Shown piece after piece: positions 12,428 through 33,566 of a stretch of DNA of 56,927 nt. The position numbers were made by a program, and so were the translations under genes. Every line of letters starts with the position of its first letter. The first letter of the stretch is position 1. The DNA comes from a virus. A model generated the notes under the pieces. It was not told where the DNA came from. It was given only the letters and a program-made list of their open reading frames with translations, and did no database searches. The stretch lies in the IMG/VR virus record IMGVR_UViG_3300037247_001878, positions 1 to 56,927 of that record. The stretch is one strand, 5' to 3'.

Positions 12428-12445
12428 ATCCGAATGAGCTCCTGA

Positions 12446-13657: not shown

Positions 13658-13658
13658 T

Positions 13659-15437: not shown

Positions 15438-15442
15438 ATTGC

Positions 15443-15607
15443 CTAGAACCGCTCGAAAATCGGCAAGTGGATTTCAAGCCAGCCAAGACAAAGCCAGCGC
15501 TCACTCTCGTGAAAGACCCAGCCCCATTTTCTACGCTCCGGGAACAAGATCGTCATCACTTCGAGTCGACGCCATGGCGGCGCGGATGGTGGAAAAGCAA
15601 TAAACAT
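15443..15607 (-). CDS. Small tail-module protein (54 residues)
   Basis: Short frame starting MFIAFPPSAPPWRRLEVMTI and ending LEIHLPIFERF, rich in Trp and Phe. It fills most of the 190-base gap between the phosphatase-like gene and the hub gene. The stop is five bases before the hub start, and an AAGG box lies 12 bases before the ATG. The composition is unlike random shadow frames here. Function unknown; it may be a tail-tip adaptor. Confidence 0.5.
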   Translation of the reverse strand: MFIAFPPSAPPWRRLEVMTILFPERRKWGWVFHESERWLCLGWLEIHLPIFERF

Positions 15608-15627
15608 CTGTTTATGACCTTCGACGG

Positions 15628-15921: not shown

Positions 15922-16346
15922 CAGACCTCCTCGAGCTCGAGCGTCCACGGCAGGTTTGCTGGGTATTCCTCGCGACCGCTCCTCCAATCCATCACCAGCA
16001 TTACCAACCTCGGGCGGTAATTGGTGAAGAGGCCATTGGCTACGCTCGACCCCGGAACCACGGTGCGCCCGGCCGGACCCGCAGAGGTCAGATAAGCCAG
16101 TTTGGTGAGGGCGTCGACCGTCACCGTGCTCCCGATCCAGTTCTCATCGAAGGCCGGCGGCTCTTGGTCGGTGCCAGTAAGACTGAGCCGGTATTTGCGG
16201 AACACCGTATCGCTCACGTCGATCAGCACCCCGTTGACCGTTCGCCGCGGCTCCGGGCCCGAAATCGGCCGCAGGGTCTCGACCAGGCCGCGCGCCGAGA
16301 AATCCGGAATACCTATACCCGTCAAGACCAGCTCGGTGTCGGCCAT
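15921..16346 (-). CDS. Tail protein after the tape measure
   Basis: 141 residues, beta-rich, no known motif (VLTGIGIPDFSARGLVETL near the N terminus; RTVNGVLIDVSDTVFRKY). It lies between the tape measure and the phosphatase gene with overlapping ends. Placement matches distal-tail or minor tail proteins of siphophages. Function by context only. Confidence 0.65.
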   Translation of the reverse strand: MADTELVLTGIGIPDFSARGLVETLRPISGPEPRRTVNGVLIDVSDTVFRKYRLSLTGTDQEPPAFDENWIGSTVTVDALTKLAYLTSAGPAGRTVVPGSSVANGLFTNYRPRLVMLVMDWRSGREEYPANLPWTLELEEV

Positions 16347-18926
16347 TTATATGCTCCTGCGCGGCCCCCGGCCGATGCTGTGCCGGTCCTCGATCAACGC
16401 GATCCGCCCGATCGCCTCGGCGGTCTCTTGGTCCGAGCGCACCTGGAAGCTCTGCCCGCCGAGAACCAAGGTGAACAAACTCTCCCCGCTCGGCGCTGCG
16501 GGCAATGCTGCGGCGACCGGGCCGCCGGCCGCGTAGGCCGGGATCGGCATGAGCGGCAAGGTTAGGGAGCGGGCGAGACCGTCGACCAGGCCGCCCAGGG
16601 AGAACTTGGGCAGGCGCATGTGGTTGACCGCGCGCATGAAGCTGGTGCCATAGTAGCGCACCGCTCGCGCCTGCATGACGAACTCCTTATCGGACAGCCA
16701 CGCGGGGATCGAGTCCGACGTCGTCGTGCCCGGCCCGCGCACCTGGCCGCCGCCGGTCAGGACCGGCACCCCGGCGCCCGACGCGCTGCCGCCGCCCGAG
16801 AGGCCGAGCGCCTCCCTGGCGGCCCTGAAGGCGCGCGCCGCCAGGGCCATCAGGCGGCTGAACAGGCGCGCGAGGAAATCGACGCCGCTCTTGAAATCGG
16901 CGACCAGGCCGTCCACCATGTCGCTCCAGCGCGTGGCGATGAAGTCAATGGCGGCCTGCCCGGCGGCGACGATGTCGTCCCAGAACACGACCACGGCCGC
17001 GGCGGCCAGGACCAGGGCGGCGACCAGCAGCGCCGGCCAAAGGCCAATGAGGATGAGGAATTCGGCAGCCCCCGCGATAAGCAAGATCGCCGTTTTGATG
17101 AGGCTGACAACGGAAACCACAATGACGAAGACGGCGGCGATCGTTCTGAACAGACCAAGCCACTGAGCCACAATGGCCACGATCAGCAGCGCCGTGCCCG
17201 AGAGCTCGGTCCCGAATACCTTGTTGATCGCGCCCGCGACCTTGTCGGCCGCGGCGATTAGCCCTTTGAACGCCGGGACGATGATCTTCTCGAAGGCGGC
17301 CTTTACAGCATCGGCGAACTCAAGAACCGTTCTCTTTATTTCAAGAACTTTAAGCTGGAACTCGCTCAAGGGTTTGCCGAACGCCAGGACATCGCCGCCA
17401 GCCTGTTCGCCCGCGCCGGCGAACAATACCTCGAACAGTTCCTTGACCTTGGCGATGGCCTCGGGCAGGACCCCGATCACCAGGGCGGATACGGCGAGGA
17501 CCGCTGCGCCCAACCCGCTGAAAACCCCCAGAAGTTGCGCCACCACGGCCGCGATCAACAGCGTCCGGCCCGAGAAGTCGGTGCCGAAAGCCGCGTTGAC
17601 CGCCACCGCGAGCTGGTCGAAGATCGCGAGCAAGCCCCGAAACGCCGGGACGATGATGCCCTCGAAGGCGGCGCGGACATCGCGGGCGAAGGCGACAATG
17701 GCGTCGCGCGCCTCGAGGATGAAGGGCTCGCGCACATCCTGGTCGCGCCCGGTGAGCGCGGCGACCAGGTCCTCGACCAGCGCGACCGCTTTCGGCACCG
17801 CGCCCGAGGTCAGGTCGAGGATGGCCTGGCGGTGGCGGATCAGCGCCTCGGTCTGACGGTCCGCGGCTTCGGTCAAGGCCGGCGCGAACAGCAGGCCGAT
17901 CTGGTCCTTCAGCGCCTTGAGCGACGCCCCCAGGCGGCCCTGCGCGTCGATCAGCGCGGTGCCTATCTTGCCTTGCTGGGTCGTGAAGGTGGCGCCGAGG
18001 CGGTCGGCCTCGCCGAGCAGCTCGCGAATCCCGGCGCTGCCCTGGTTCAGGAACGGCAGCATGAACCGGGCTACGCCCTCGCCGAACAGAGCGGCGGCGA
18101 TGCCGGCCTCCTCGACACCGTCGGGGAACGCCGCGAAGGCGTCGGCCAGGTCGAGCAGGATGTCGAAGGGATCCCGCAGCGCCGCCCCCGCGGTTTCGAG
18201 CCCGCTGGCGAATTGCTTGATCGTCTGGCCGACTGGAACGAACTGCAGGCCGGTTTCGCTGACTTCGACGCCCAGCGCCCGCAGCGCTTGTGCCGCCCGG
18301 TTGCCGCCTTCGGCCTGGGCGTCGAGCGCCGCGCCGCCGACCGCCATGGCCCGCTGCGCCTCGGCCCAGCGCTCGGGCTGGAGGCCGAGCTGGTCGTTGA
18401 GGCCGCGCTGCCCCTTGGCCGCCTCGGCGACCTTGGCGTTCAACGAACTGAGCGCGGTCTCGAATTGCTCGATCTTGAGGCCCGATTGCGTGGCTGCGAA
18501 TTTCAGGCCCGTGTACTGCTCGATGCTGAGGCCGAGGCCTTCGGCGGTCTTGGCCGCCTGGTCGGCCGCCGCCGCACCGCTGCGCGCCACCGCCGTGATC
18601 GCCGCGGCCGCGCCCAAGGCCGCTGTGGCCAGCAGCGTCATGCGCCGGGTGACGGTGCGCAGCACGGACACCAATTCGGTGCCGCGCCGGCGGATGGTGC
18701 GGAAGGAATCGCCCAGGCGCTTGCCCGCGGCCTGCAGGGCGGAGACGTTGGCCTTGAGGCGCACCACCGAGGCAGACAGCTTGGCGTTCGGCGAATTGGC
18801 CGCCTCGGTCGCCTTCCTGATCTGCGCGAAGGCGCGTTCGCCGGTCTCGCCGAGGGCCTTGAGTTGGGCCTCGAACTCCTTGCCGCCCTCGAAGGCGATG
18901 CGCTGCTCGAGTGTTTTGCGGGCCAT
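16347..18926 (-). CDS. Tail tape-measure protein
   Basis: 859 residues. A helical N terminus with a tape-measure start (FEGGKEFEAQLKALGETGER) is followed by Ala-rich helices, two near-duplicate segments around a phage helical unit (IVPAFRGLLAIFDQLAVAVN and IVPAFKGLIAAADKVAGAIN), and several strongly hydrophobic stretches (about 590-665). At about 1.5 angstrom per residue it predicts a tail near 130 nm, so the virion should be a siphovirus. It sits after the tail chaperone pair, the normal order. Confidence 0.9.
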   Translation of the reverse strand: MARKTLEQRIAFEGGKEFEAQLKALGETGERAFAQIRKATEAANSPNAKLSASVVRLKANVSALQAAGKRLGDSFRTIRRRGTELVSVLRTVTRRMTLLATAALGAAAAITAVARSGAAAADQAAKTAEGLGLSIEQYTGLKFAATQSGLKIEQFETALSSLNAKVAEAAKGQRGLNDQLGLQPERWAEAQRAMAVGGAALDAQAEGGNRAAQALRALGVEVSETGLQFVPVGQTIKQFASGLETAGAALRDPFDILLDLADAFAAFPDGVEEAGIAAALFGEGVARFMLPFLNQGSAGIRELLGEADRLGATFTTQQGKIGTALIDAQGRLGASLKALKDQIGLLFAPALTEAADRQTEALIRHRQAILDLTSGAVPKAVALVEDLVAALTGRDQDVREPFILEARDAIVAFARDVRAAFEGIIVPAFRGLLAIFDQLAVAVNAAFGTDFSGRTLLIAAVVAQLLGVFSGLGAAVLAVSALVIGVLPEAIAKVKELFEVLFAGAGEQAGGDVLAFGKPLSEFQLKVLEIKRTVLEFADAVKAAFEKIIVPAFKGLIAAADKVAGAINKVFGTELSGTALLIVAIVAQWLGLFRTIAAVFVIVVSVVSLIKTAILLIAGAAEFLILIGLWPALLVAALVLAAAAVVVFWDDIVAAGQAAIDFIATRWSDMVDGLVADFKSGVDFLARLFSRLMALAARAFRAAREALGLSGGGSASGAGVPVLTGGGQVRGPGTTTSDSIPAWLSDKEFVMQARAVRYYGTSFMRAVNHMRLPKFSLGGLVDGLARSLTLPLMPIPAYAAGGPVAAALPAAPSGESLFTLVLGGQSFQVRSDQETAEAIGRIALIEDRHSIGRGPRRSI

Positions 18927-20966: not shown

Positions 20967-21413
20967 CTACAAATCCTCGGGCCTCAGCACATAGGTGAAG
21001 CTGAAGACCAATCCCATCTCGCCGAGCATCTGGCGCCCGCGCGCCAGGCCGGTGGCGCAGGCCTGGTAGCGGATCTCGCCGTTGCTGCCGACCAGGCTTC
21101 CAAGCTCGGCATCGGTGAGCACCGCCTTGATCAGCCGGGCGCGCAGGCGGTTGAGCTCGCTGCCGACCGCCTCGGGTGTTTCGCCGAGGATCACATAGAG
21201 CTCGGGCGTCATGGTCACCAGGTTGGGCGAGCGCGCCGGACGGCCGCGCCCGAAGGCGGCCTCGTCGGCCTCCTCGTCGGCGTCGAGCACGATGACCGCC
21301 GGGAAGTTCCAGTCCCCGGCCACCTGCTCGTTGCGCGCGCACACGGCCACGCCGTCCACGGTCCGGCAGACCGCCAGCAGCCGCACCAATATCTGCTCGC
21401 GTTTATCGCTCAT
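20967..21413 (-). CDS. Tail terminator-like protein
   Basis: 148 residues with the alpha/beta opening of gpU-like tail terminators (MSDKREQILVRLLAVC; NFPAVIVLDADEE; TMTPELYVILGE). It overlaps the upstream connector gene (ATGA) and precedes the tube gene, the usual order. It would cap the tail tube at the head-proximal end. Confidence 0.7.
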   Translation of the reverse strand: MSDKREQILVRLLAVCRTVDGVAVCARNEQVAGDWNFPAVIVLDADEEADEAAFGRGRPARSPNLVTMTPELYVILGETPEAVGSELNRLRARLIKAVLTDAELGSLVGSNGEIRYQACATGLARGRQMLGEMGLVFSFTYVLRPEDL

Positions 21414-21742
21414 GGGTCCTCGATCAGGATCAGGCGCAGCTCGCGGGCGTTGCTTGTCGGCGCGGTGGATTCCACCCGGTAGCGCGTGCCGTCGATCACG
21501 ATTGCCGCCTTGACCAAGTCCTCACGCGCGAGACCGGCGGCCGCGAGGTCGGCCAGGCGCAGGACGCAGGTCGGTCGGATGGTCGGGACAATGATGCCCC
21601 CGGCGCCGGCTTCGTCGACCTCTCTCATGTCGAACAGCACGGTGAGCGCCAACGGAGCGTGGTCGACGGCTGTCAAGGTCGCCGCCACGCCGAAGGTCTC
21701 GTAGGCCGGCGCGTCGAGCAGGCCGGCGAAGTCGATGGTCAT
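21410..21742 (-). CDS. Head-tail joining protein (gpFII-like)
   Basis: 110 residues with a beta-barrel pattern (GVAATLTAVDHAPLALTVLF; PTCVLRLADL; GTRYRVESTA) as in small head-tail attachment proteins. It overlaps both neighbours by four bases. Assignment rests on size, strand pattern and position. Confidence 0.65.
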   Translation of the reverse strand: MTIDFAGLLDAPAYETFGVAATLTAVDHAPLALTVLFDMREVDEAGAGGIIVPTIRPTCVLRLADLAAAGLAREDLVKAAIVIDGTRYRVESTAPTSNARELRLILIEDP

Positions 21743-22125
21743 CTGAGCAGACTCGCGTGCAGCTGGAAATGGCCGTGAGGTCCCGGCCAGATATCGCCGC
21801 CCTCGGTCACCTCGAGCTCGTAGTAGATCCGCCCGGGCGTCAGGTCCTTGGTGTCGTCCTTGACGAGCGCAACCCGGATCACGTTGTCGACCCCCTCGCC
21901 GCCGGTGACGACTGTGATGCCAGCGGCGAGGGTCTTCTCGAAGTGGGGCGCCGCATCGGTGACCGCATCGGCCAGGCCGAAGCGGATCGCGGTGGCCGAG
22001 CTCAAGTCCACCGGCTTGGTCAGGTCCGGCTGGCCCGGGTCGAGCGGATCCTCGTCGTAGATCGGGAAGTCCAAGGGCCGCGCCTTGCCGGCGTGGAAGT
22101 CGATCCTCGTGACGTTATGCGACAT
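21739..22125 (-). CDS. Neck-region protein
   Basis: 128 residues, beta-rich, opening MSHNVTRIDFHAGKARPLDF and containing a long extended middle (TAIRFGLADAV; RVALVKDDTKDLTPGRIYYE). Similar short Ig- or baseplate-upper-like proteins appear beside connectors in phages. It overlaps the repeat-protein gene by 11 bases. Precise role unknown. Confidence 0.6.
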   Translation of the reverse strand: MSHNVTRIDFHAGKARPLDFPIYDEDPLDPGQPDLTKPVDLSSATAIRFGLADAVTDAAPHFEKTLAAGITVVTGGEGVDNVIRVALVKDDTKDLTPGRIYYELEVTEGGDIWPGPHGHFQLHASLLR

Positions 22126-23773
22126 CGCGTATCCCCTTGATCGTGATCGGCGCCGGCCGGATGCCGTCCCGCGGCCCCGGGCGTAGGCCGGCCACGGTAG
22201 CCACCAGCGGCCGGATGCCGGGGATGACGATCGGCGGGCCGACGAAGCCCCGCGTGAAGACCAGCACCGCGGTCGGTGCCGCCGCCACCGACAACCCGCC
22301 GGCGACCCGGGCGTGGCGGGTGAAATCCATCACCGCGGCCGCCGGCAGGATCCGGGCCGTGGCCACGCCAATGATCACGGGGTGGCGCGAGACCTCGAGC
22401 ACCGCCGCCGGGCTGGCCGCGATGGTCACCGCACCGGCCAGCGCCGGGTGCTGCCGGAAGTCCAGCGCCGCCGCCGGGGCGGCCGTGACCGTCACGGCGC
22501 CGACAACCCCGGCGTGGCGGGTAAAGTCCAATGCTGCGGCCGGGCTCGCCGCAATCACGATTGCGCCGGCAACCCCGGCGTGACGGGTGAAGTCGAGCGT
22601 TGCCGCCGGGCTGGCCGCGATGGCCGTCGCCCCGGCCAGCGCCGGGTGCTGCTGGAAATTCAGCGCCGCAGCCGGACTGGCCGTGACGGTCGCGACGCCC
22701 ACCAGCGCGGCGTGACGGGTGAAGTCCAGCGCCGCCGCCGGGCTGGCCGCGATCGCCACCGTGCCCGCGAGGCCAGGATGCTGCGTGACGTCCAGCGCCG
22801 CCGCCGGGCTGGCCGTAACGGTCGCGGCGCCCGACAGCGCCGGATGCTGTTGGAAGTCCAGGCTCGCGGCCGCGCTGGCCGTGATGGTTTCGGCACCGGC
22901 CAGCGCCGGATGCTGCGTGAAGTCGAGCGCCGCCGCGATCGACTCGACGATCGTCAGCGCGCCGGTGATCGCGTGGCTCGCCGCAGCCGCCGCGGCGTTC
23001 CACTTCAGCGTCCAGGTCCTGACGATGCGCTTGGCGTAGGCCAGCGTCGCCGCGGCCGAGGCCGCGATCGTCACCGAACCCACCAGCGCCGGGTGCTGCT
23101 GGAAGTCCAGCGCGGCAGCCGCGGACACGGTGATGGTCTGCGCACCCGCGAGGTCCGGATGCTGTGTGAAATCCAGGGTCGCCGCCGGGCTCGCCGTGAC
23201 GGTCTCGGCGCCCGTCAGCGCCGGGTGCTGCTGGAAGTCCAGCGTCGCCGCGGCCGACTCGGTGACCGTGACCGCGCCGGTGATCGCGTGGCTCGCGCCG
23301 CCGGTGTAATCGACGTTCCACTCGACGTGGCCGATGCGGACGCTGTTTCGGGCGTCCGGCGCGCCGCCCGACTTGGTCCCGATCACCTTGCATTGAACCA
23401 GCGACCCGTCCGCCGTCGCCAGCTCGTTTGCGTTCCAGGTGAAGCTCAGAACCGCATAGGTGCTGACATTCGTGTTTGAACCTGCCCGGACGAGAGTGCC
23501 GTTCTCCCACAGCTCGATGCGCGCGGTCGGCGTGCCGGTCTGGCCGCTGTCGAATTCCTCGACGCCGGCGCGGAACGCCTGCAAGTCCGCCCCGACGGTC
23601 GGGTCACCCGACGGGGTCGGGAAATCGGCGCCCCATTCCGTGTTGACGTTGTCTCCCGTGGCATCGATCGTGACCGAACTAACGTCGGGATCTTCGTCGT
23701 GGTCGAGTTCGGAGTTGGCGACCAGGCCAACATCGCTCAGCTCCCCGTCCGGCCGCAGGGTCTCGCTGGCCAT
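22115..23773 (-). CDS. Repeat protein with about fifteen 22-residue repeats
   Basis: 552 residues. Residues about 1-155 are a beta-rich domain. From about 157 to 500 there are about fifteen tandem 22-residue units of the form A-G-A-x-T-V-x-A-S-P-A-A-A-L-D-F-x-Q/R-H-P-A-L. The fourth unit runs into an odd linker (LAYAKRIVRTWTLKWNA). The regular pattern of short strands suggests a solenoid or fibre rather than a globular enzyme. It lies in the head-tail region, beside the LamG-like protein and the glycan cassette, and could be a capsid or neck fibre. Family not recognised. Confidence 0.7.
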   Translation of the reverse strand: MASETLRPDGELSDVGLVANSELDHDEDPDVSSVTIDATGDNVNTEWGADFPTPSGDPTVGADLQAFRAGVEEFDSGQTGTPTARIELWENGTLVRAGSNTNVSTYAVLSFTWNANELATADGSLVQCKVIGTKSGGAPDARNSVRIGHVEWNVDYTGGASHAITGAVTVTESAAATLDFQQHPALTGAETVTASPAATLDFTQHPDLAGAQTITVSAAAALDFQQHPALVGSVTIAASAAATLAYAKRIVRTWTLKWNAAAAAASHAITGALTIVESIAAALDFTQHPALAGAETITASAAASLDFQQHPALSGAATVTASPAAALDVTQHPGLAGTVAIAASPAAALDFTRHAALVGVATVTASPAAALNFQQHPALAGATAIAASPAATLDFTRHAGVAGAIVIAASPAAALDFTRHAGVVGAVTVTAAPAAALDFRQHPALAGAVTIAASPAAVLEVSRHPVIIGVATARILPAAAVMDFTRHARVAGGLSVAAAPTAVLVFTRGFVGPPIVIPGIRPLVATVAGLRPGPRDGIRPAPITIKGIRDVA

Positions 23774-23785
23774 GGGAGGCGCCCC

Positions 23786-24973
23786 CTAGTTTGGATCGTT
23801 GCCGGAGATCCGCAACACGCCCGAGTCCGGCGTCGCGGCCCCGGCGCCGGCGCCGACGATGCGCTTGATCCAGATCGGATAGAAGTCGCCGGCCGCCAGC
23901 GTGCCGAGGTTGAGCGCTGTCGTCCCGAAGCTCGGTCCACTGGGCGCCGTGTCTTCGTCGGCTACCTCGGTCTCTGTGCCATTCTTGCCGGCCGCGCCGA
24001 GCGCGATCTCGAAGTTGCTCTGGGCCGGGTCGGTATCGATCTCGACCTTGACGTTCGGAGCCGAAAGCGAGCCGTGGGTGTTCTTCACATAGCCGCAGCG
24101 AAATTCGGTATCGCCCGCGCCGGCGTCGTCGCTCGATACGTCGTCCCAGAGATTGTTGAGCGCGTCGTCGGTCAGCGCCGCGCCAATCGCCCCGCCGATG
24201 TCGCTGGCGCCGGAGTGGTGGAGCGCGAGGTTGGCCGAGGTGAAGACGACGCTGAGGCCAACCACCGGAGTCTCGTCCGCCATGCTGATCGGGCCGAAGA
24301 AGTCGCGAGCAATTTGAGAACACTCCGTAGGAATCAACGCCCGGCTGTGGACAATAAATACCGGCACCGTTCCGTCCGTCTCATTGCCGGTGGTGTCAAT
24401 GCCGCCGACGGACCCAACATCGTCGTCAATAGTGTGACTTGTGGCCGTAGGTCCACCAGCTAAAAGACCATCTACATAAAATCGTATATTCGTGCCATCA
24501 AATGTAGAGGTCAGGACTATTCTAGTGCCGACAACCAAAGGGTTCGGTATGTCTATGGGGGTGCCACCCCAAATAGCAAGCCTGAGATCGGCGGCGTTTT
24601 TATGAACAATTGCCCCCTTGCTGGTGCTTTGGTTCCCCCAAAACCATATGTTGGGAAGGAACGTATCAATGGCGCGCGGTGTTAAAACAATGGTAACCGA
24701 GAAAGGCGCATTCGTGCCTATTGGAAAACCTGAGATTGAGAGTTTATCCCCTGCCCCACCGGGGAAATCTATAACCGTGCCTTCGGCCCCGTCACCCCAA
24801 GAAACACTCCCATTTAAAGTGCCAACAATCCCTCCGACCAAATCTTTAGGCGACCCAGCCCGCTCCCAAAACGGAAACGCCATAAGTAAGTCGGGATCGC
24901 TCCAAAACCACCGCCACTCCGGCGCGACCTCGCGCGGGTTCACGTCCCAGGGCAGCGGCTTCTGCAGGAACAT
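23786..24973 (-). CDS. Concanavalin/LamG-like structural protein
   Basis: 395 residues. Residues about 45-230 read as a LamG-type jelly roll (VGTLNGSVSWGDG; FSVTIVLTPRAI; GTRIVLTSTFDGTNIRFYVDG), which usually binds sugars. The C-terminal part (about 240-395) is a second beta domain with LALHHSGASDIGG and a TDPAQSN motif. The stretch 24300-24850 is more A+T-rich than its surroundings, a sign of domain exchange. Carbohydrate binding on the virion surface is plausible and fits the adjoining glycan genes. Confidence 0.7.
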   Translation of the reverse strand: MFLQKPLPWDVNPREVAPEWRWFWSDPDLLMAFPFWERAGSPKDLVGGIVGTLNGSVSWGDGAEGTVIDFPGGAGDKLSISGFPIGTNAPFSVTIVLTPRAIDTFLPNIWFWGNQSTSKGAIVHKNAADLRLAIWGGTPIDIPNPLVVGTRIVLTSTFDGTNIRFYVDGLLAGGPTATSHTIDDDVGSVGGIDTTGNETDGTVPVFIVHSRALIPTECSQIARDFFGPISMADETPVVGLSVVFTSANLALHHSGASDIGGAIGAALTDDALNNLWDDVSSDDAGAGDTEFRCGYVKNTHGSLSAPNVKVEIDTDPAQSNFEIALGAAGKNGTETEVADEDTAPSGPSFGTTALNLGTLAAGDFYPIWIKRIVGAGAGAATPDSGVLRISGNDPN

Positions 24974-24997
24974 GGTCCCGATCCCGCCGCCCGCGCC

Positions 24998-25585
24998 CTA
25001 GACGCTGGTCAGTTCGTGGGCGAAGGCCTCGGCGTCGACCGCCTGGCCGGTGTTGCCGTAGAAGAAAAAGTTCACGAACATCACCGCCGCGCCCAGGCCC
25101 CAGGAAATCGGCGCCTCGTCCAGGTTGCCGGTCCCGGCGGTCATGAACGGGCGCCACTTGAAGTCGGCCTCGACGCTGGCGTTGGCCAAGCCGACCAGGA
25201 TGCTCAAACCGGCGGTCGGGCCGGTGGTGCCGTTCTGCACCCGCCCGGTGATGATGACGCCCAGCGCGGTCGAGAGGTCGAGCTCCGTGCCCAGCTTGCC
25301 GAACCAGCACTTGATGGTGCCACTCGCGCTCGCGCCCGGGTCTTGCTTGAGCGTGTAGTCGAAAACGCTGCCCGAGGCGTTGGAGATCGTGAAGACGCCG
25401 TTATATTCCGATTCCGCCGCCCCAAAGATGTAGACCACATCGCCGTTGGATTTCCCGTGGGCCGCGCTTGTGGTCGCGGTCGCGGTCACGCCCGAGCGGG
25501 TGATCGAGGTGACGGTCTTCTCTGTCTCGGCAGCCAAGTTGGTGGCGACGCCCAGGATGGTGCGCGCGGTCTTTGATACGGCCAT
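24998..25585 (-). CDS. Virion structural protein
   Basis: 195 residues, Thr/Ala-rich, beta pattern with an Ig-like first half (VTSITRSGVTATATTSAAHG; VVYIFGAAESEYNGVF) and a hydrophobic C-terminal half (WGLGAAVMFVNFFFYGN). Family not recognised. It belongs to the compact block between the glycan genes and the repeat protein. Confidence 0.6.
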   Translation of the reverse strand: MAVSKTARTILGVATNLAAETEKTVTSITRSGVTATATTSAAHGKSNGDVVYIFGAAESEYNGVFTISNASGSVFDYTLKQDPGASASGTIKCWFGKLGTELDLSTALGVIITGRVQNGTTGPTAGLSILVGLANASVEADFKWRPFMTAGTGNLDEAPISWGLGAAVMFVNFFFYGNTGQAVDAEAFAHELTSV

Positions 25586-25588
25586 GGC

Positions 25589-25930
25589 TCAGCTCCAGAT
25601 CGCTCCGTCCCAGCTGGCATGAAGGTTGCTGTAACGGGCCTTGTAGTCCGCCAGCGCCTCGGTCTGGAGCTCGGTCCAGGCCGCTTCCAGCCGCGCCTTC
25701 ATCTCAGCCACCGTGAAGCCGTGGATGGAATAACCACGGACCAGTTCAAACAGCGTCCCGGCCTGGAGGTCGGTGACTTCCTGGGCGCTGAGTTTGCTTG
25801 CCGCGCCGCCGGCCGGCTGGCGCGTCGCGTCGACGGCCGAGGCCTCCTGATCCGGCCCGGACACCGGATAGTAGAAGGCAACGCTGACCTGGGTCGCGGA
25901 ACGGCCGACGATCTCGATGCGGGTTGCCAT
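25589..25930 (-). CDS. Hypothetical virion-module protein
   Basis: 113 residues. A beta-rich first part (IEIVGRSATQVSVAFYYPV) and a helical second part (AEMKARLEAAWTELQTEALA) that resembles short phage proteins with a C-terminal helical hairpin. The stop is four bases from the next start. No function assigned. Confidence 0.6.
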   Translation of the reverse strand: MATRIEIVGRSATQVSVAFYYPVSGPDQEASAVDATRQPAGGAASKLSAQEVTDLQAGTLFELVRGYSIHGFTVAEMKARLEAAWTELQTEALADYKARYSNLHASWDGAIWS

Positions 25931-25982
25931 GCGTTCCTCCTAGTTCAACCTCACGCCCGGCCTCACGCCGGCCCGCCAGGAC

Positions 25983-26468
25983 CTACGCGAAGGTGATGTT
26001 CGGGGTGATGTCGTAGGTGTCGTTCTCAGCGAAGGTGTAGGGGCCGTTGGAGTCCACTTCGATGGCGACGATGCGCGGCGTGGTGCCCTTGCTGACGATG
26101 GCGTAGCCCTGCACCGAGCCGGTCCAGCCGCCCGCGCCGGCGGTGAAGGTCTGCTGAGCGAAGGAGCGCGTGTCGCCCGAGCCGGTCCACGAGGCGTCGG
26201 TCAGGTTCTTGCGCGCGTAGCCGGTGCCGGTGGGCTCGGTGAGCGTCGCCTCGGTGATGGTCTCGCCCGGCGCCACGTTGGTGAACAGCAGCAGCTCCAG
26301 GTCGGTGCCCCGGTCGGTGGTGATGTTCTTGATCGCCTGATCGACCATCATGGACTCGCCCTCGTCGGGCAGAAAGCCGGCCATGGCCAGGATCTGGCCG
26401 GCGAGCGCGCGCAGGCGCTCGAGCGGCGCGGCCAGGTCGAACTCGAAGGTCGCGGCGGCGGCGTTCAT
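25983..26468 (-). CDS. Hypothetical virion protein
   Basis: 161 residues with a short helical N terminus (LAAPLERLRALAGQILAMAG) and a beta-rich remainder (DLELLLFTNVAPGETITEAT; GSVQGYAIVSKGTTPRIVA), a pattern seen in small phage fibre-associated proteins. It overlaps its upstream neighbour by four bases. Role unknown. Confidence 0.6.
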   Translation of the reverse strand: MNAAAATFEFDLAAPLERLRALAGQILAMAGFLPDEGESMMVDQAIKNITTDRGTDLELLLFTNVAPGETITEATLTEPTGTGYARKNLTDASWTGSGDTRSFAQQTFTAGAGGWTGSVQGYAIVSKGTTPRIVAIEVDSNGPYTFAENDTYDITPNITFA

Positions 26469-26683
26469 GCTCGGACCTCCCGCGGCAGATCCTCGACGGC
26501 GACCGTCTTGCCGAGAAACGTGCCGGACAGATGGACGCGCAGGCCGCGCTTTTCCATCATGCGCTTGTAGGATTCCGGGTCGTCGCCCGGGCCGGTCTCG
26601 CCGCGGTGGTTGAGGACGCCGAGCGGCTTGCGCCGGCCGTCCGCCAGTTCGACGTCGCGTTCGAGATAGACGTGCATGGTCAT
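26465..26683 (-). CDS. Small hypothetical protein
   Basis: 72 residues (MTMHVYLERDVELADGRRKP at the start), mixed charge, with one Gly/Pro-rich loop. An AGCAGGAGG-type ribosome site lies a few bases before the ATG. It joins the glycan cassette to the virion genes. A 22-codon frame (26748-26680) just upstream overlaps its start as ATGA and may be a translational coupler. Confidence 0.55.
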   Translation of the reverse strand: MTMHVYLERDVELADGRRKPLGVLNHRGETGPGDDPESYKRMMEKRGLRVHLSGTFLGKTVAVEDLPREVRA

Positions 26684-26768: not shown

Positions 26769-27524
26769 CTATTTCCAGTATTTGCCGACCCAGGGGTGCT
26801 GGGCCCGGGTCGCGGCGTGCCAGGGCTTGCCGCGGCCGTTGAAGTGCACCACCCGGGCGTCGGCCGGCGGCGCCAGGGTGCGTTTTTGCCGGTCGTCCCG
26901 GGTCATGTCGCGGATCGAGTAGATGCCGCAGCCCTTGGGCCAGACCGGCGCCGTCCCGGCCAGGCAGTAGCTGATCCAGGCCTGGTCGGAGCCGCGATAA
27001 TTCGCCTTGCGCGCCTCCAGGATCGATTTGGTGCCCTCGAAGCGGTCCCAGACTTGCGTGACTTCGCCGGCGCGCAGCAGGTACTGGCCACCCGCCAAGC
27101 GGATCTCCTGGCTGGGCTTGGGCCAGGCCTGGCCCGGGCGCCAGCCGATAAACGGCACATCGACGTCGAGCAGCGGCGCCCAGTCGCCGGTGACCGCGAT
27201 ATCGAGGTCGACCACCATGAGCCGCGGGCCGAGCGCGGCGGCCTCGCGGCTGAACATCCACAGGCGACGGTAGGATGACGGGAAGCCTTTCTTCTCCGGG
27301 GTCTCCAGGCGCGCCAGCGCGCGCGCCGCCGGCGGGGTCTCGATCACCTCGGCGGCGCCCCAGTCGCCCCGGATATCGTCGGCGATCGCGATCAGCCGGT
27401 AGGGCACGGTCATGTGCCGCGCCAGCATGCGCCCGAGCACGGCCACGTGCTCGGGCGCGTAGTCGCGGCCGCCGTCCCACACCCAGGTGACGATCGAGAC
27501 CGTCACGGGCTCATTCCCAACCAC
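26769..27524 (-). CDS. Glycosyltransferase (GT-A-like)
   Basis: 251 residues. An N-terminal strand SIVTWVWDGG is followed by a nucleotide-sugar-type fold; LMVVDLDIAVTGDW holds the DxD metal motif (VDLDI), and GSDQAWISYCLAG is the usual second acidic region. The family resembles phage and bacterial proteins annotated as glycosyltransferases of the GT8/GT-A type. It is last in the six-gene cassette and overlaps the GT-D gene. Donor and acceptor are unknown. Confidence 0.7.
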   Translation of the reverse strand: MVGNEPVTVSIVTWVWDGGRDYAPEHVAVLGRMLARHMTVPYRLIAIADDIRGDWGAAEVIETPPAARALARLETPEKKGFPSSYRRLWMFSREAAALGPRLMVVDLDIAVTGDWAPLLDVDVPFIGWRPGQAWPKPSQEIRLAGGQYLLRAGEVTQVWDRFEGTKSILEARKANYRGSDQAWISYCLAGTAPVWPKGCGIYSIRDMTRDDRQKRTLAPPADARVVHFNGRGKPWHAATRAQHPWVGKYWK

Positions 27525-28230
27525 CGGCCCTCGGCTTCATTGAAAGCAACGACGCCGTGGCCCGCGACCAACCTTCGCGTCCGACCTTGAGCAGCATGCC
27601 GGCGCCCCGGCCCAGGTCGACCGCCTGCAGCCCGGCGCGCGCAAGCCGGTCGGCGAGCACCGTGGCCGCCGGCCCGGCGCAGATCACCGCGAGCGTCGTC
27701 CCCGCCGCGAGGCAGGTCGCCTCGATCGCCGCCAGCGCGCCGTAGGCCTCCATCTTCGGACAGGGTACCCAGGTCACATGGGCAGCATCCTTAGCCAGCA
27801 GCTTGCGCAGGCCGTGGTCCTCGGCGCAGACGGCCGCGACCCGGCGCCCGGCCCACAGGCCCCGGAACGCCGCGAAATAGTCCGGGCGCAGAATCCAGGG
27901 CGCGCAATCGGAGCGGCCGACGAAGGCCGAGCCGTAGACCCGCGCCGGATCGAACAGGGGGGCGAAGCGCGCCTTGGAGCGCGACCAGTTGCCATACTTC
28001 GGGCTCTTCGGGTCCATGGTCGGGATCGCCGGCAGGCAGCCCGGCGCCGGGTCATGGAGAATGCGCCGCAAATCCTTGGCGAGCGCCGGATTTGGTGCAT
28101 GGGTGCTGTTGCCCTTGCCTTGCGCGATCGCCAGCTCGCCGTCGCCCAGGCGCGCCAGTGAGGCGCCGGCGCACATTCGGTCCAGGGTTTCGTCCTCGGT
28201 CAGGCAGCGCGGCCAGGCCGGCGCGCTCAT
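27511..28230 (-). CDS. GT-D fold glycosyltransferase (DUF1792-like)
   Basis: 239 residues. The opening ASLARLGDGELAIAQGKGNS fits the GT-D/DUF1792 signature (R-x-G-D-G-E near the N terminus), followed by VYGSAFVGRSDCAPWI and a Rossmann-like C-terminal half. GT-D enzymes extend protein-linked glycans in bacterial adhesins. The gene overlaps both neighbours, indicating one operon. Confidence 0.7.
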   Translation of the reverse strand: MSAPAWPRCLTEDETLDRMCAGASLARLGDGELAIAQGKGNSTHAPNPALAKDLRRILHDPAPGCLPAIPTMDPKSPKYGNWSRSKARFAPLFDPARVYGSAFVGRSDCAPWILRPDYFAAFRGLWAGRRVAAVCAEDHGLRKLLAKDAAHVTWVPCPKMEAYGALAAIEATCLAAGTTLAVICAGPAATVLADRLARAGLQAVDLGRGAGMLLKVGREGWSRATASLLSMKPRAGGWE

Positions 28231-29309
28231 GCCGCGTCTCGCAGCGCATCGAGCTCGGACTCCGGCACCAGGCGGGCGAGCAGCTTGAGCGTCCCGCCGG
28301 TCCGGCGTACCGCTGCGGCGCGGCCGAGACGGGTCAGTTCCCGGGACAGCGCAGGACGATCGACCGGGCGCAGGCTACCGACCCGGATACCGGCATGCCC
28401 CGAGGGTCGGTCCTGCTCCCAGGCGTGGAAGATCTCCTCGTCGAGCTTTTCCCCGGGCCTCAATCCGGTGAAGCGGATTTCGATATCATCGCGCCCGGCT
28501 TGGACGATCATGCGGCGCGCCAAATCCTGAATACGCAGCGGCTCGCCCATGTCGAGCGCGAAGACCGAGTCCAGCGGCGCGAACAGCGCGCCGGTCCGGA
28601 GCACCAGCGCCACCGCCTCGGCCGTGGTCATGAAGTAGCGCCGCACCTCCGGGTGGGTCACGGTGACCGGACCGCCGGCCGCGATCTGGCGCGCGAACAG
28701 CGGCACCACCGAGCCGGCCGAGCCGAGCACGTTGCCGAAACGCACGATGTTGAAGCGGGTCGGGAAGCCGCGCGCCGGCGAGGCCTGGCAGACCATTTCC
28801 GCCACCCGCTTGCTCGCGCCCATGACGGAGATCGGGTTGACCGCCTTGTCGGTCGAAATCAGCAGCATGGTCACCACGCCCGTCGCCAGACAGGCCCGTG
28901 CCAGGTCGCGCGTGCCAAAGACGTTGGTCAGCACCGCCGCCTCCGGATTGGCCTCGGACATCGGCACGTGCTTGATGCCGGCGGCGTGGAACACGAGTTC
29001 GGGGCGGTGCCGGTCGAGAATCTGCGCCAGGCCGCCGCCACAGACGTCGGCGAGCACGGCGGCGCGCGGCACGGTTGGGAAGGCCTCGCCGATCTCGGCG
29101 TCGATCGCATAGAGCGCGGCCTCGCTGTGGTTGAGCAGCACCACGCAAGCCGCCCCGGCGGCGGCGACCTGCCGCGCCAGCTCCGAGCCGATGGTGCCGC
29201 CGGCGCCGGTCACCAGCACGCGGGCGCCCGCGACCATCGCGCGCAGGGCTTCGGGATCGGAGCGCCGCTCCGGCCGGCCCAGCAGGGCCGTGGAATCGAA
29301 CGCGGTCAT
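28227..29309 (-). CDS. CapD/PseB-type NAD-dependent sugar 4,6-dehydratase
   Basis: 360 residues, short-chain dehydrogenase fold. GAGGTIG (35-41) binds NAD; LISTDKAVNP (151-159) is the CapD/PseB catalytic region with Lys155; VRFGNVLGS and a C-terminal substrate part (GLRPGEKLDEEIF) complete the family pattern. Enzymes of this group make 4-keto-6-deoxy-HexNAc from UDP-GlcNAc, the first step to deoxy amino sugars. Its presence indicates that the phage supplies its own modified sugar donor. The length is shorter than membrane-anchored CapD, so it is the soluble type. Confidence 0.88.
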   Translation of the reverse strand: MTAFDSTALLGRPERRSDPEALRAMVAGARVLVTGAGGTIGSELARQVAAAGAACVVLLNHSEAALYAIDAEIGEAFPTVPRAAVLADVCGGGLAQILDRHRPELVFHAAGIKHVPMSEANPEAAVLTNVFGTRDLARACLATGVVTMLLISTDKAVNPISVMGASKRVAEMVCQASPARGFPTRFNIVRFGNVLGSAGSVVPLFARQIAAGGPVTVTHPEVRRYFMTTAEAVALVLRTGALFAPLDSVFALDMGEPLRIQDLARRMIVQAGRDDIEIRFTGLRPGEKLDEEIFHAWEQDRPSGHAGIRVGSLRPVDRPALSRELTRLGRAAAVRRTGGTLKLLARLVPESELDALRDAA

Positions 29310-30040
29310 CGGACCTGGTGCCAGGGGAAACGCAGGTGATCGGTGGGCAAAAGATCGCCCTGGCTGCGCTTGTGCGCGCGCAGGTCCTCGTAGGGTTTGC
29401 GGTCGCGGCTGAGCGTCAGGTCCGAGGCATCGGCGATGCTGTGCCGCGTGTGGACCCAGAGCGGCGCGTCCTCGAGCAGCTCGCAGGGCGCCACCGCCGC
29501 GAGGGCGGCCAGGAACGGCGCCGAGCCGCCCAGGTGCCCCGAATAGTCCTCGTCGTAACCGCCCATCCGCCAGTAGAGCGCGCGGGTGCACAGGTAGGAA
29601 TCCACGTGCGGCTTGACCGGCCCGAAGACTGCATCGTCCGGAATCGCGTCCTTGCGCCGGGTCGCGTCCGCGCGCCCGGCCCGGAAGCGCGCGAAGCGGT
29701 ACCAGCAGGCCGGGTCGGCCGTGAAATGCTCGGCCAGCCAGATCGCCGAGGGGACCGGCAGCAGATGATCGATATCGGTCTGCAGGATCCAGTCGGTCTC
29801 GGCCACCTGGGCGCCCAGGTTGCGCGCGCCGTTGCGGTTCCAGGGGATGTCGGTCTCGATGCGGTAGAGCGCGGCGCGGCAGCCGTTCGGCAGCACTTCG
29901 TGGGCCGGCTCCGGGCTGCCGTCGTCGACCAGGATCACCCGGATCCCGGCCGGATAGCCGGCCCAGGCCACGGCCTGACGCCGCAGCATCTCCGGGTTGC
30001 GGTAATAGGGGACGATCAGCGTGAACCCGGTCACCGCCAC
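29306..30040 (-). CDS. GT2-family glycosyltransferase
   Basis: 244 residues. It starts with the GT-A fold strand (TLIVPYYRNPEML) and VDDGS (38-42); GARNLGAQVAETDWILQTDI shows the acceptor-side region, with the metal-binding TDIDH at 88-92. It overlaps the dehydratase gene by four bases and the methyltransferase by ten. Likely adds a sugar to a phage-encoded acceptor. Confidence 0.82.
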   Translation of the reverse strand: MAVTGFTLIVPYYRNPEMLRRQAVAWAGYPAGIRVILVDDGSPEPAHEVLPNGCRAALYRIETDIPWNRNGARNLGAQVAETDWILQTDIDHLLPVPSAIWLAEHFTADPACWYRFARFRAGRADATRRKDAIPDDAVFGPVKPHVDSYLCTRALYWRMGGYDEDYSGHLGGSAPFLAALAAVAPCELLEDAPLWVHTRHSIADASDLTLSRDRKPYEDLRAHKRSQGDLLPTDHLRFPWHQVR

Positions 30041-30717
30041 ACCCGCATGGTCTTCTGCCCCGCCGGCCAGACGTCGGGTAACTCTTCGGCGTGCAGTCCA
30101 ACCGCTTGCGCAGCATCCACGAAAAATTCCGGCGGGTATTGGAACTGCTTGAGGCCCGAGCGGCGCGGCTGGTCGTGGCGCTTGTAGGTGAAGGCGAATT
30201 CGCCGAATTCCCGGACGGCCAGACCGGCGAACAGGCCCTGGATCACGTCCGCCGGCAGATGGGTGAATACCGAATGCGCCCAGATGAAATCGAAGGCGCG
30301 GTGGCGCAGCCCTGCGAAACCGCCGGTGCCATGGATGAAGCGCGGAGAGCGTTCAGCCCAGCCTTCATCCTCGCCGAGTTGTCGCGCGTGGGCCAGGGCG
30401 GCGGGCGAGATGTCGATGCCCGTATAGCGCCCCGGATCGAGCCAGGGCACGGCAACGCGGGCGAAGCGCCCGGTGCCGCAGCCCAAATCCAGCAGCCGCG
30501 AGGCCGGGGTCAGCCCGCGCTTCCGGAGGAAGGCGAGCTGCAGCGGCCCGTGCTCTTCCCACTGCCCGCCGATCGCCGCCGCCGGGCCGTCGCGCCGCAC
30601 CCGCAAATCGGTGTGCGCCGCGTAAGCCTTGACGTAATCGTCGGTCGCCTGGTAGAGCGCCAACTCCTCCGGGTTCCGGCTCGCCTTGTCGGTGAAGCCG
30701 CTCAGGTTAAGGGTCAT
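30031..30717 (-). CDS. SAM-dependent methyltransferase of the glycan cassette
   Basis: 228 residues, class I methyltransferase. Motif I is LLDLGCGTGRFA (about 75-86), an acidic residue ends strand 2 (YTGIDISPAAL), and AFDFIWAHSVFTHLP is motif IV. Overlapping genes on both sides place it in sugar or protein modification rather than DNA methylation; it probably methylates a sugar or a capsular unit. Substrate unknown. Confidence 0.8.
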   Translation of the reverse strand: MTLNLSGFTDKASRNPEELALYQATDDYVKAYAAHTDLRVRRDGPAAAIGGQWEEHGPLQLAFLRKRGLTPASRLLDLGCGTGRFARVAVPWLDPGRYTGIDISPAALAHARQLGEDEGWAERSPRFIHGTGGFAGLRHRAFDFIWAHSVFTHLPADVIQGLFAGLAVREFGEFAFTYKRHDQPRRSGLKQFQYPPEFFVDAAQAVGLHAEELPDVWPAGQKTMRVWR

Positions 30718-32027
30718 GGCGCCTCGATCTCCCCCTCGGTTTCGGTCTCTCGATTGGCGTTGGCCCGGCCCCACCAGGGGAGCACCAGGTCGAGCGCCGC
30801 GGCGATACGCGCCGGGGTCTCCGGATCCTCGATCGCCACATCGAGGAAGCGCGGGTCGTCGGCGAAGGCCGCGCGGACGCGCGCGTGATAGTCGGCGACC
30901 CACTCGATGAGCGCGGCGTCCTCGCCGCCCCGCCCACGCGGCAGGAACGGCAGTTCGGCCTTGACGATGCGCGCGCGCAGGTCCTTCCAGCGCGCGATGC
31001 TGGCCAGCCAGTCCTTGGGCGCCCGCGTATTCAGCAGGATCAGCGTCTCCGGATGGTGCTCCCGCAAGGACCGCAGGAAGCCGGGCGCCAGGGTCGGCCA
31101 GATGCTCACCCGCTCCCACTTGGGCGAGCGCGTGATATAGGCATCGCAGATCGCCTCGACGCCGCGCGGCACATAATGCAGCGGATCCCGGGCCTCGACG
31201 AAGGCGCGCCAGAGCTGCAGTGCAATCGGCGTGCCGTCCACGTGAAAGTGGCCGTGGCTGGACACCAGCCCGGCGCGGCCGAAGGCGCGGTGCAACGTCG
31301 AGGTGCCGCTCTTGGGCAACCCGCACACGAAGACGCGCAACTCGCTCACTTGCTCTCCTCCCGCCGAAGATGCGCGCAAAGACGGGCCGGGCTCCGCCGC
31401 CAAGACATCATCCAGCGTGACGATCGGCCAGAGATCCCAGTGGCTGCCCGGGCTGGCGTTCAGCACCTCGACGCCGAGGTCCTTGAGCGGCTGGACCATG
31501 GTCCGCAGATCGACGAGCTGCTCGTCCCAGCAGCCCGGCTTCGGCGCCTGCTTGTGCGGCGCGTGGTGATGGGTTCGGCCCTTGGCGTCCCGCCCGCCGT
31601 CGGCGCCGAGCAGCACCAGGCGCGTGGCGCCGAGCAGAACGGCCATGTTGATCGCGCCGTGGAGCGAGGTGCGCCGGACGCTGAGCGCGCGCGGATCGCT
31701 GCTGATCGCGACGCCACCGGCTTTGCCGGGAAATGGCGGGGCGACCTGGCGCAGGTGCAGCAACCCGTCCCAGTCGATCGCGCTCGTGGTGGTAACCACG
31801 CGCCCGCGCCACGGGCCCTCGATCGCCGCCCGGTGCTCGTAGAGCCAAGGCCGGTCCGCCGAGAAAAGATAATCGGCGAAGGGATGGGCGATGTAGCTGG
31901 AATTGACGGCGATCACCCGCCGGCCCGCCAGGCGGTGAGCCCCCTGCCCGGCCAGCGACGGCCCACCCGCCAGGATGAACGCGGTCTCGCCCTCCCACAG
32001 TCGCGGGACCGACCACTCGGTTGCCAT
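30714..32027 (-). CDS. Fusion: DUF115/MptE-like domain plus sulfotransferase
   Basis: 437 residues. Residues about 1-205 match the DUF115/MptE-like fold found in motility-glycan enzymes (AFILAGGPSL; VIAVNSSYIAHPFADYLFSA; LVLLGADGG). Residues about 230-425 are a sulfotransferase: VFVCGLPKSGTSTLHR holds the 5'-phosphosulfate loop LPKSGTST (237-244), and a 3'-phosphate region follows near 325. The second half would move sulfate from PAPS to a hydroxyl. Fusing a glycan-building domain to a sulfotransferase suggests a sulfated phage-specific glycan. First gene of the cassette, after the capsid gene. Confidence 0.75.
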   Translation of the reverse strand: MATEWSVPRLWEGETAFILAGGPSLAGQGAHRLAGRRVIAVNSSYIAHPFADYLFSADRPWLYEHRAAIEGPWRGRVVTTTSAIDWDGLLHLRQVAPPFPGKAGGVAISSDPRALSVRRTSLHGAINMAVLLGATRLVLLGADGGRDAKGRTHHHAPHKQAPKPGCWDEQLVDLRTMVQPLKDLGVEVLNASPGSHWDLWPIVTLDDVLAAEPGPSLRASSAGGEQVSELRVFVCGLPKSGTSTLHRAFGRAGLVSSHGHFHVDGTPIALQLWRAFVEARDPLHYVPRGVEAICDAYITRSPKWERVSIWPTLAPGFLRSLREHHPETLILLNTRAPKDWLASIARWKDLRARIVKAELPFLPRGRGGEDAALIEWVADYHARVRAAFADDPRFLDVAIEDPETPARIAAALDLVLPWWGRANANRETETEGEIEAP

Positions 32028-32044: not shown

Positions 32045-32076
32045 CGCCGAAGGGGCCCCGGCGGGGCCCCTCGGCG
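32045..32076 (-). terminator. Long GC hairpin after the capsid gene
   Basis: CGCCGA-A-GGGGCCCC, loop GGC, GGGGCCCC-TCGGCG forms a 14-pair stem with one bulge. On the minus strand GTTTG follows, so T content is low. Lying between the capsid gene and the glycan cassette, it likely attenuates read-through so that the enzymes are made at lower level than the capsid. Confidence 0.55.
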
Positions 32077-32101: not shown

Positions 32102-33118
32102 TCAGGTGTTCTTACCCGGGATCAGGGCCTGCGGCCGCGTGCAGATGTTGAGCGTGTTCATCTGCACTTCGAGCTCGATGCCCTTGTCGTTCGGCATCGG
32201 GAACTGCTTGGCCGTGAGCCGGCGGCCGAGTGTGTTGACCGTCTCGACGTAATCCGCCGGCGCGAAGTAGGTCCGGAACAAGTTGGGCACGCCGACCGGG
32301 AAGATGTGCGCCTTGGTGGCGGCGACGAAATCCGTCGCGCCAACCTTGCCGCGATAGTTCTGCCAGCGGATCCCGCCGAACTCGAAGGACCCGAAGGACA
32401 TCCCGCCGTCGACGTAGCCGCGTCGCAGCTCGGCGGCGGCGGTCTGGTTCAGGAACGTCTCGCGGACCTCTTTGTGCGCGATCAGCTCGTCGTAGAAGGT
32501 ATCGCCGACGAACGCGTGCACGCCCGTAAACGGCACGCCCTCGAGGATGTTCGCGATCTGCCGGACGACTTTGCCACAGGCCTTGCGCAGCACGCCCTCG
32601 GCAGGACTCGCAGCATCCAGGTCGAAATTGATCTCGGTTTCCTGGCTGACGCCGAACAGGGTGAAGAGGTTCAACGTCGTGTTGTCGGCGTAGGTGACGA
32701 TGCCCTTGACCGCGCCGATGCGCGAGAACTCCTGGGTCGCTTCGAGCGACTGGGAGTGGACCGCGACGCGCTCCGTTACCTGGCCCATGATCGATTCGAG
32801 CGCGGTTTCGGAGCCCCATTGGCGCACGCCCTGGACCTCCTCGGCCATGATCGCATCGTCAATCTCGAAGTGAGGCACGACCACGCTGCGCAGGTTGCGC
32901 TTGCCTTTGTCGATCGTGGTGCCGGGACCGCCGCGCGGGGTGGGCGCGACCAAGACCAGGATGCCGTCGCGCTCCTCGAGCGCGATCGAGGTGGCTGGGA
33001 CGCCGCTCTCCACGAACAAGTTCATCGAGCCGATCAGGCCCGGAACGAACTTGAGCTTGTTGATTGCGTCCGTCAGTGGGACGAGGCTGAAGGCGTCGTC
33101 CGTGAAGATGTCGAGCAT
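32102..33118 (-). CDS. Major capsid protein (lambda gpE family)
   Basis: 338 residues, recognisably the gpE/HK97-fold type: opening MLDIFTDDAFSLVPLTDAIN, the central PHFEIDDAIMAEEVQG, a middle GDTFYDELIAHKEVRETFLN and the C-terminal RTYFAPADYVETVNTLG. Next to a gpD-like decoration gene, as in lambda. It would assemble the icosahedral head with the scaffold and S49 protease encoded upstream. Confidence 0.92.
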   Translation of the reverse strand: MLDIFTDDAFSLVPLTDAINKLKFVPGLIGSMNLFVESGVPATSIALEERDGILVLVAPTPRGGPGTTIDKGKRNLRSVVVPHFEIDDAIMAEEVQGVRQWGSETALESIMGQVTERVAVHSQSLEATQEFSRIGAVKGIVTYADNTTLNLFTLFGVSQETEINFDLDAASPAEGVLRKACGKVVRQIANILEGVPFTGVHAFVGDTFYDELIAHKEVRETFLNQTAAAELRRGYVDGGMSFGSFEFGGIRWQNYRGKVGATDFVAATKAHIFPVGVPNLFRTYFAPADYVETVNTLGRRLTAKQFPMPNDKGIELEVQMNTLNICTRPQALIPGKNT

Positions 33119-33179: not shown

Positions 33180-33566
33180 CTAGCGCGCGATGATGAAGAG
33201 CTTGGCGAGGCTGGTGTTCACAGCCGCCTTCTCCCCGCCGGCCGTCGATTCGGTCGGATAGGTCAGGAGGTTGTTGTTGACCTCCGCGAGGCGCGCGATG
33301 TAGGCAGCCGCGACATCGGCGTCGGCGCCCGTGGCGCTCGCGTCGATCGCGTCGATCACGATGCCGGCGACCTCGGTCTGGACGCCCCCGGCGGTGTCGA
33401 GCAAGCCGTCGGCGGCGATCAGCTTGCCGGCGCCGTCCTCCTGGACGACCTCGCCGACCTTGAGCTTCTGCCCCTTGAGGACGGTGCCGTTGTCGCGAGA
33501 GATGCCGCCGTTGCCCTCGGACAGGATGAATTCCGCCGTGTGGCGGGCTTCGGTTTTCAAGACCAT
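33180..33566 (-). CDS. Head decoration protein (gpD-like)
   Basis: 128 residues. The gpD-like features are the N-terminal arm (EARHTAEFILSEGNGGISRD), VLKGQKLKVGEVVQ and a C terminus with AVNTSLAKLFIIAR. The gene lies directly upstream of the capsid gene, matching lambda order D-E. It would trim the expanded capsid at threefold sites. Confidence 0.85.
   Translation of the reverse strand: MVLKTEARHTAEFILSEGNGGISRDNGTVLKGQKLKVGEVVQEDGAGKLIAADGLLDTAGGVQTEVAGIVIDAIDASATGADADVAAAYIARLAEVNNNLLTYPTESTAGGEKAAVNTSLAKLFIIAR

Follow-up and report, generated by a model that had tools for sequence, protein, structure and literature searches.

A six-gene glycan-enzyme cassette in the late structural run of a phage, with a Maf-like core and a predicted sulfotransferase, and its possible part in virion glycosylation

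Gene content of the cassette

The window analysed here is the whole of a 56,927-base virus record (IMG/VR IMGVR_UViG_3300037247_001878), and the element in question is a block of six genes at 26769-32027 that follows the major capsid gene and encodes enzymes of glycan synthesis and modification. An earlier note, made from the letters alone, had described a tightly overlapping six-gene cassette, and that description holds: the six open reading frames (ORFs) are real, all lie on the minus strand with neighbours overlapping by 4-14 nucleotides, and their families were matched. Its gene calls were right, but its count of three glycosyltransferase-type proteins was one domain short, there being four such domains, of which the additional one, residues 1-212 of the fusion protein, is sialyltransferase-like (PHROG 4603, E = 2e-26). 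The six genes are as follows.

30714-32027, minus strand: fusion protein of 437 residues, with a Maf/GT42-like glycosyltransferase core (residues 1-212; PHROG 4603, AlphaFold) and a predicted sulfotransferase domain (about residues 230-437; PF17784)
30031-30717, minus strand: S-adenosylmethionine (SAM) methyltransferase, 228 residues (PF08242/PF13649, Methyltransf_12/25, E = 6e-13; 50% identical to its counterpart in the metagenomic phage contig L132)
29306-30040, minus strand: GT2 glycosyltransferase, 244 residues (PF10111, Glyco_tranf_2_2, E = 2e-8; PF00535, E = 2e-6; 61% identical to L132)
28227-29309, minus strand: soluble PglF/WbpM-type 4,6-dehydratase for uridine diphosphate N-acetylglucosamine (UDP-GlcNAc), 360 residues (PF02719, Polysacc_synt_2, E = 4e-92; PDB 5bju)
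27511-28230, minus strand: GT-D fold glycosyltransferase (DUF1792), 239 residues (PF08759, E = 6e-16, 59.4 bits against a cut-off of 27; PDB 4pfx/5v4a, E = 2e-9)
26769-27524, minus strand: GT8-like glycosyltransferase, 251 residues (PF01501, E = 9e-5; phrog_1962 glycosyltransferase, E = 2e-5)

The core of the fusion protein belongs to a phage family that is already known, mostly unannotated, and named alpha-2,3-sialyltransferase. Its AlphaFold model (residues 1-213, from 35 phage sequences) has a predicted local distance difference test score (pLDDT) of 95 and finds its best PDB match in the Maf flagellin O-glycosyltransferase 5mu5 (Z 16.6, root-mean-square deviation 3.1, 185 residues aligned, 13% identity), with further matches to CstI/CstII (Z 12.5 over 192 residues for 2p2v and 180 for 1ro8, 13-14% identity) and to MptE-type HPPK (Z 11.3). 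Sequence comparison of the core with solved structures returned chance matches only, the likeness to Maf being one of fold alone, and the PF01973 (MptE-like) profile gave no match at threshold in the window protein, nor in that of L002 (16.4 bits against a cut-off of 34.6). One histidine, H155, is nearly invariant in the core alignment. On the strength of the model the core may act like Maf, though it is not classed as Maf. The domain is under purifying selection (dN/dS about 0.22), much as the capsid gene is (about 0.19).

The second half of the fusion matches Sulfotransfer_4 (PF17784, E = 3e-8, 34.1 bits against a cut-off of 22.8, half of the profile covered). Five phage sulfotransferases agree without exception in the SGTS of the PKSGTS loop and in the R...S columns; we take the loop to bind the 5'-phosphosulfate, and the Arg and Ser the 3'-phosphate, of 3'-phosphoadenosine 5'-phosphosulfate (PAPS). 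The sulfotransferase assignment is thus a prediction based on one Pfam match and conserved binding-loop residues. Searched against annotated phages this half gave no match, and no close relative occurs in any other locus retrieved; sulfotransferases of other Pfam families lie near the core gene in L012, L013, L023 and L098. Because fusions of the core domain recur, as core-core-FkbM in L031 and with a further, different domain in L012, an assembly error is an improbable explanation of the window fusion. The same phage carries a gene of the PAPS-reductase family at 3153-3932 (PF01507, E = 1e-14), a co-occurrence with its predicted PAPS-using sulfotransferase.

The dehydratase scores 309 bits for PF02719 against a cut-off of 20.2, with the soluble domain of PglF (5bju, E = 1.7e-72) as closest solved relative. 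It keeps the STDKAV...MG motif, STDKAVNPISVMGASKR aligning with STDKAVRPTNIMGCTKR of PglF, and so has the T-D-K active site with Met replacing the usual Tyr, residues that we presume to be catalytic as in the family at large. The N-terminal membrane domain of full-length PglF/WbpM is not present: the phage protein has no strong hydrophobic segment and resembles the soluble domain alone. The GT8-like protein scores 22.6 bits for PF01501, below the cut-off of 24.3, and hence is called GT8-like only. No clear membrane segment was found in any of the six enzymes, and among the cargo ORFs of relatives only 2 of 74 have one; nor do the six proteins include any family of the gtr-type serotype-conversion systems (membrane flippase, lipid-linked or membrane glucosyltransferase).

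Genomic setting

A near-identical (98%) direct repeat of 176 nucleotides stands at 1-176 and 56752-56927. This suggests a complete or circularly permuted phage genome, and the window is therefore probably close to a whole genome. The late region is of lambda type and runs on the minus strand through terminase gpA, portal, protease region, decoration protein D and capsid protein E to the six enzyme genes (32027-26769), which are followed by genes for small and surface-type proteins (26683-22115) and then by neck and tail genes. The cassette had been placed between capsid and neck genes; the capsid gene does directly precede it, but about 4.7 kb of putative surface-protein genes (22115-26683) intervene before the neck genes (21410-22125). 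The flanking features are these.

33180-33566, minus strand: head decoration protein D (PF02924, E = 4e-19)
32102-33118, minus strand: major capsid protein E, lambda gpE family, directly upstream of the cassette (PF03864, E = 2e-96)
32045-32076, minus strand: GC-rich hairpin between capsid gene and cassette, a possible attenuator or processing stem (fold of the 74-nucleotide spacer, z = -2.7)
21739-22125, minus strand: conserved neck-region gene, downstream of the exchanged unit described below (72% identical in L002)
21410-21742, minus strand: head closure protein Hc1 (phrog_82, E = 1e-5)

The hairpin is strong, and its stem is retained in the nearest relative, L012, with one compensatory pair change (C-G to T-A). 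It has no U-run and therefore may reduce transcription into the cassette without halting it, a suggestion drawn from two sequences.

Joint exchange of enzymes and surface-type proteins

The L012 stretch, which also occurs in an Aurantimonas metagenome bin (L025), is 85% identical to the window in DNA over the protease region, D, the capsid gene and the core domain, as far as a sharp break at position 31397 (codon 211 of the fusion). Homology returns at 22235, within the last 40 codons of a protein of 22-residue repeats. Between these points the two phages carry different genes, about 9.2 kb in the window and about 7.5 kb in L012, where an FkbM methyltransferase, a sulfotransferase, a GT9-like protein and a repeat protein of its own come after the fused core. 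Beyond the enzymes, the exchanged stretch of the window contains the following genes.

26465-26683, minus strand: small protein, first of the exchanged non-enzyme genes (ORF; no PHROG match)
25983-26468, minus strand: possible surface or structural protein (phrog_17792, E = 0.003, weak)
25589-25930, minus strand: small protein (ORF; no PHROG match)
24998-25585, minus strand: virion-protein-like, rich in Ser/Thr (21%), candidate acceptor (phrog_9998, E = 8e-11, virion/fiber families; composition)
23786-24973, minus strand: LamG/concanavalin-like, candidate surface protein or acceptor (PF13385, E = 2e-6)
22115-23773, minus strand: 22-residue-repeat protein, candidate surface fiber or acceptor (66-nucleotide repeats; last 40 or so codons conserved in L012)

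Since the exchange spans both, from 31397 to 22235, the enzymes and the surface-type proteins move together. Such joint exchange fits a pairing of enzymes with their acceptors; plain linkage would look identical. The protein at 22115-23773 has at least ten repeats of 22 residues, and its C-terminal tail is conserved; the matching place in L012 is taken by a different repeat protein whose tail is similar.

Distribution among related phages

A scan with the core protein returned 80 viral loci, which were pooled with earlier loci and dereplicated to 35 clusters, the selection being made on sequence, irrespective of position. In 23 of the 35 the head-closure gene lies downstream of the core gene and on its strand, with a gap of 1-7 kb in 22; L014 has nothing between the two. 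Several contigs among the other 12 clusters end soon after the core gene, and L098 has a capsid-like gene just upstream of it. The genes found between core and head closure are mostly methyltransferases, together with glycosyltransferases, PIG-L deacetylases and sulfotransferases. Scans with the GT8 and GT-D proteins gave 50 clusters, 32 of which hold at least three of core, GT2, GT-D and GT8, an approximate count in that the profile matches were not individually checked. The dehydratase found no relatives in the viral scan, probably owing to poorly placed search peptides; relatives bearing it were reached through GT-D.

The earlier note had thought the same block worth looking for in related phages. 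Two metagenomic phage contigs (L131 and L132) keep the window order with one extra GT-D (methyltransferase, GT2, GT-D, dehydratase, GT-D, GT8; 42-61% identity), and because they share this order the cassette is not a chance assembly. Most of the set also occurs at this site in the cultured virus S20 (NC_020840), whose core, GT-D, methyltransferase, GT2, FkbM-like and GT8 genes stand between those for a head-region protein and Hc1. In six further phages (L138, L140, L141 and L145-L147) GT2 and GT-D instead precede the portal gene, coming after the terminase gene in some of them, and GT8 follows the capsid gene where the contig extends that far. The note had also considered that the block might be variable cargo at unrelated sites: the cargo is indeed variable, but it has one preferred site, from capsid to head closure, or from terminase to portal in a few phages.

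S20 itself (L166) is listed as Tetraselmis viridis virus, with an algal host, and is classed in Caudoviricetes; it has the gene content of a tailed bacteriophage, and a bacterium present in the culture may be the true host. A viral contig of 114.7 kb, L072, has three core-like genes at 190-16564, of which two form a tandem pair; after them come a radical SAM protein and a number of methyltransferases and glycosyltransferases.

Virion glycosylation and its alternatives

Cytoplasmic glycosylation of the virion is favoured because of the location in the structural run, the soluble enzymes, the protein-transferase-like core and the joint exchange with surface-type proteins. That the block is a late-expressed, exchangeable module glycosylating virion proteins in the cytoplasm is, in our judgement, somewhat better than an even proposition. 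The conservation of the cassette in L131 and L132 and of most of it in S20, the recurrence of sulfotransferases near the core and the purifying selection on the core also count in its favour. The gene content, the families, the core fold, the conserved site and the exchange are observed; the identity of the sugar, its acceptor and linkage, its methylation and sulfation, and its effect are proposals. The soluble dehydratase would convert host UDP-GlcNAc to a 4-keto-6-deoxy sugar nucleotide, as its family and active-site motif suggest. The Maf/GT42-like core and the GT2, GT-D and GT8-like enzymes would attach a short glycan to Ser/Thr of virion proteins in the cytoplasm and extend it, and the methyltransferase and fused sulfotransferase could cap or charge it by means of SAM and PAPS. 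Likely acceptors would be the co-swapped LamG-like, 22-residue-repeat and Ser/Thr-rich proteins (22115-26683), or else the capsid and decoration proteins. The product might be a phage-specific sugar coat altering the recognition or stability of the particle.

Several observations weigh against this account. Soluble enzymes could equally target host proteins or lipid-linked glycans that the host exports. No partner aminotransferase or reductase for the dehydratase is found in the cassette. The AlphaFold model of residues 218-437, the sulfotransferase half, is mostly below pLDDT 50 (about 40). The core gene is absent, moreover, from some close capsid relatives (L006, L008 and L010, found through the capsid protein), and the locus is for that reason accessory.

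The strongest rival holds that the enzymes remodel host lipopolysaccharide or capsule at a late stage of infection or during lysogeny, so as to exclude superinfecting phages or change the serotype, and with the help of host export. The families of the dehydratase, GT2 and GT8 are common in O-antigen and capsule loci, the CstI/CstII-like fold of the core includes lipooligosaccharide sialyltransferases, and phages that alter host serotype are described in passages of the literature. However, flippase, polymerase and membrane-anchored transferase are all absent from the cassette, an integrase was not seen among the genes examined, and in many phages the cassette lies within the late structural run. 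Between the two possibilities raised in the earlier note, modification of the virion is the better supported and modification of the host surface the less so, in view of the head/neck site, the lack of clear membrane segments and a core fold nearest a cytoplasmic protein O-glycosyltransferase; we regard host-surface modification as unlikely.

Less probable again is that the block amounts to selfish cargo, or cargo under loose selection, which sits at a recombination hotspot and lacks a fixed target. Cargo at the same site does differ widely among phages, is absent in L014, and was replaced over about 9 kb between the window and L012; yet the purifying selection on the core, the gene set and order conserved in L131 and L132, and the tight gene overlaps all speak against this. 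Still more doubtful is a role for the core and its partners in glycosylating flagellin or some other surface protein of the host, for instance to block rival phages. The nearest solved fold is that of a flagellin glycosyltransferase, and flagellin glycosylation takes place in the cytoplasm in the alphaproteobacterium Caulobacter (PMC7591256), but the location is late and structural, and Maf is only 13% identical to the core and far larger (632 against about 210 residues). DNA-targeting phage glycosyltransferases exist, according to the passages concerned, but hypermodification of phage bases with sugars is very improbable for enzymes within a late structural operon, where neither the cassette nor its neighbourhood showed a recognisable pyrimidine hydroxymethylase or base-modification partner, and with a core whose fold is that of a protein or glycan transferase.

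Beyond the virion glycosylation favoured for the window, a more general proposal can be offered tentatively, as one that we think rather less than evenly probable: that many phages have a dedicated locus from capsid to head closure, built on a minimal Maf-like transferase, in which glycosyl-, methyl- and sulfotransferases are exchanged as sets along with the surface proteins that accept the glycan, to give interchangeable, sometimes sulfated virion glycan coats (a 'virion serotype' locus). Were this so, sugar-coated and possibly sulfated particles would be common beyond mycobacteriophages, a function would be suggested for the widespread, mostly unannotated PHROG 4603, and particle surface chemistry could change rapidly, with relevance to adsorption, stability and immune recognition.

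Other features of the window

A low-GC island at 6400-9200 holds an IS1595/ISXO2-type transposase (7152-8147), a dCTP-deaminase-like gene (8203-9138) and an unusual 89-nucleotide tRNA, called as Thr(TGT), at 6535-6623, apparently with a long variable arm. A methyltransferase of the MT-A70 family is encoded at 46694-47839 (PF05063, E = 1e-10).

Comparison with known systems

Individual elements of the locus have counterparts elsewhere. The core shares its fold with Maf (5mu5), together with cytoplasmic protein O-glycosylation as the proposed mode, but the phage version is minimal (about 210 residues), lies beside capsid genes and bears variable C-terminal fusions; it likewise shares a fold with the GT42 enzymes CstI/CstII, from which it differs in lying in a phage late operon. 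Maf-dependent flagellin glycosylation is cytoplasmic (PMC4065374). The dehydratase has sequence and the TDK...M motif in common with Campylobacter jejuni PglF (WlaL entries, 5bju and others), although it is a free soluble protein and the rest of the bacillosamine pathway is not alongside. The window protein is, like GalT1/DUF1792 (4pfx, 5v4a), a GT-D enzyme, and it stands beside GT2 and GT8-like enzymes, but the similarity is low (E = 2e-9) and the setting is that of a phage. GalT1/DUF1792 GT-D enzymes are linked to glycosylation of the Fap1 adhesin. Among phages, gp126-gp131 of the Caulobacter phage CcrColossus likewise bring a PHROG 4603 gene next to a nucleotide-sugar transferase, a methyltransferase and GT9, directly after tail genes; that phage, however, is a jumbo phage, the site is tail-linked, and no dehydratase or sulfotransferase is annotated there.

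The closest functional precedent comes from mycobacteriophages, whose capsid and tail-tube subunits are shown or proposed, in passages of three papers (PMC12619734, PMC11256854 and PMC13313380, citing Freeman et al. 2023), to be glycosylated by phage-encoded glycosyltransferases; one citing paper, in the passage concerned, pairs a glycosyltransferase with a methyltransferase. In one cited phage those genes are placed near the 3' end of the genome, whereas the window cassette follows the capsid gene, and those passages mention no dehydratase, Maf-like core or sulfotransferase, whereas the window locus has all three and more enzymes. A search covering part of the literature found no paper on such a locus or on a phage cassette of sulfotransferase and glycosyltransferases. 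Virion glycosylation as such has thus been reported before, in mycobacteriophages; what is new here is an enzyme-rich, sulfotransferase-bearing variant with a site of its own, a Maf-like core and a dehydratase.

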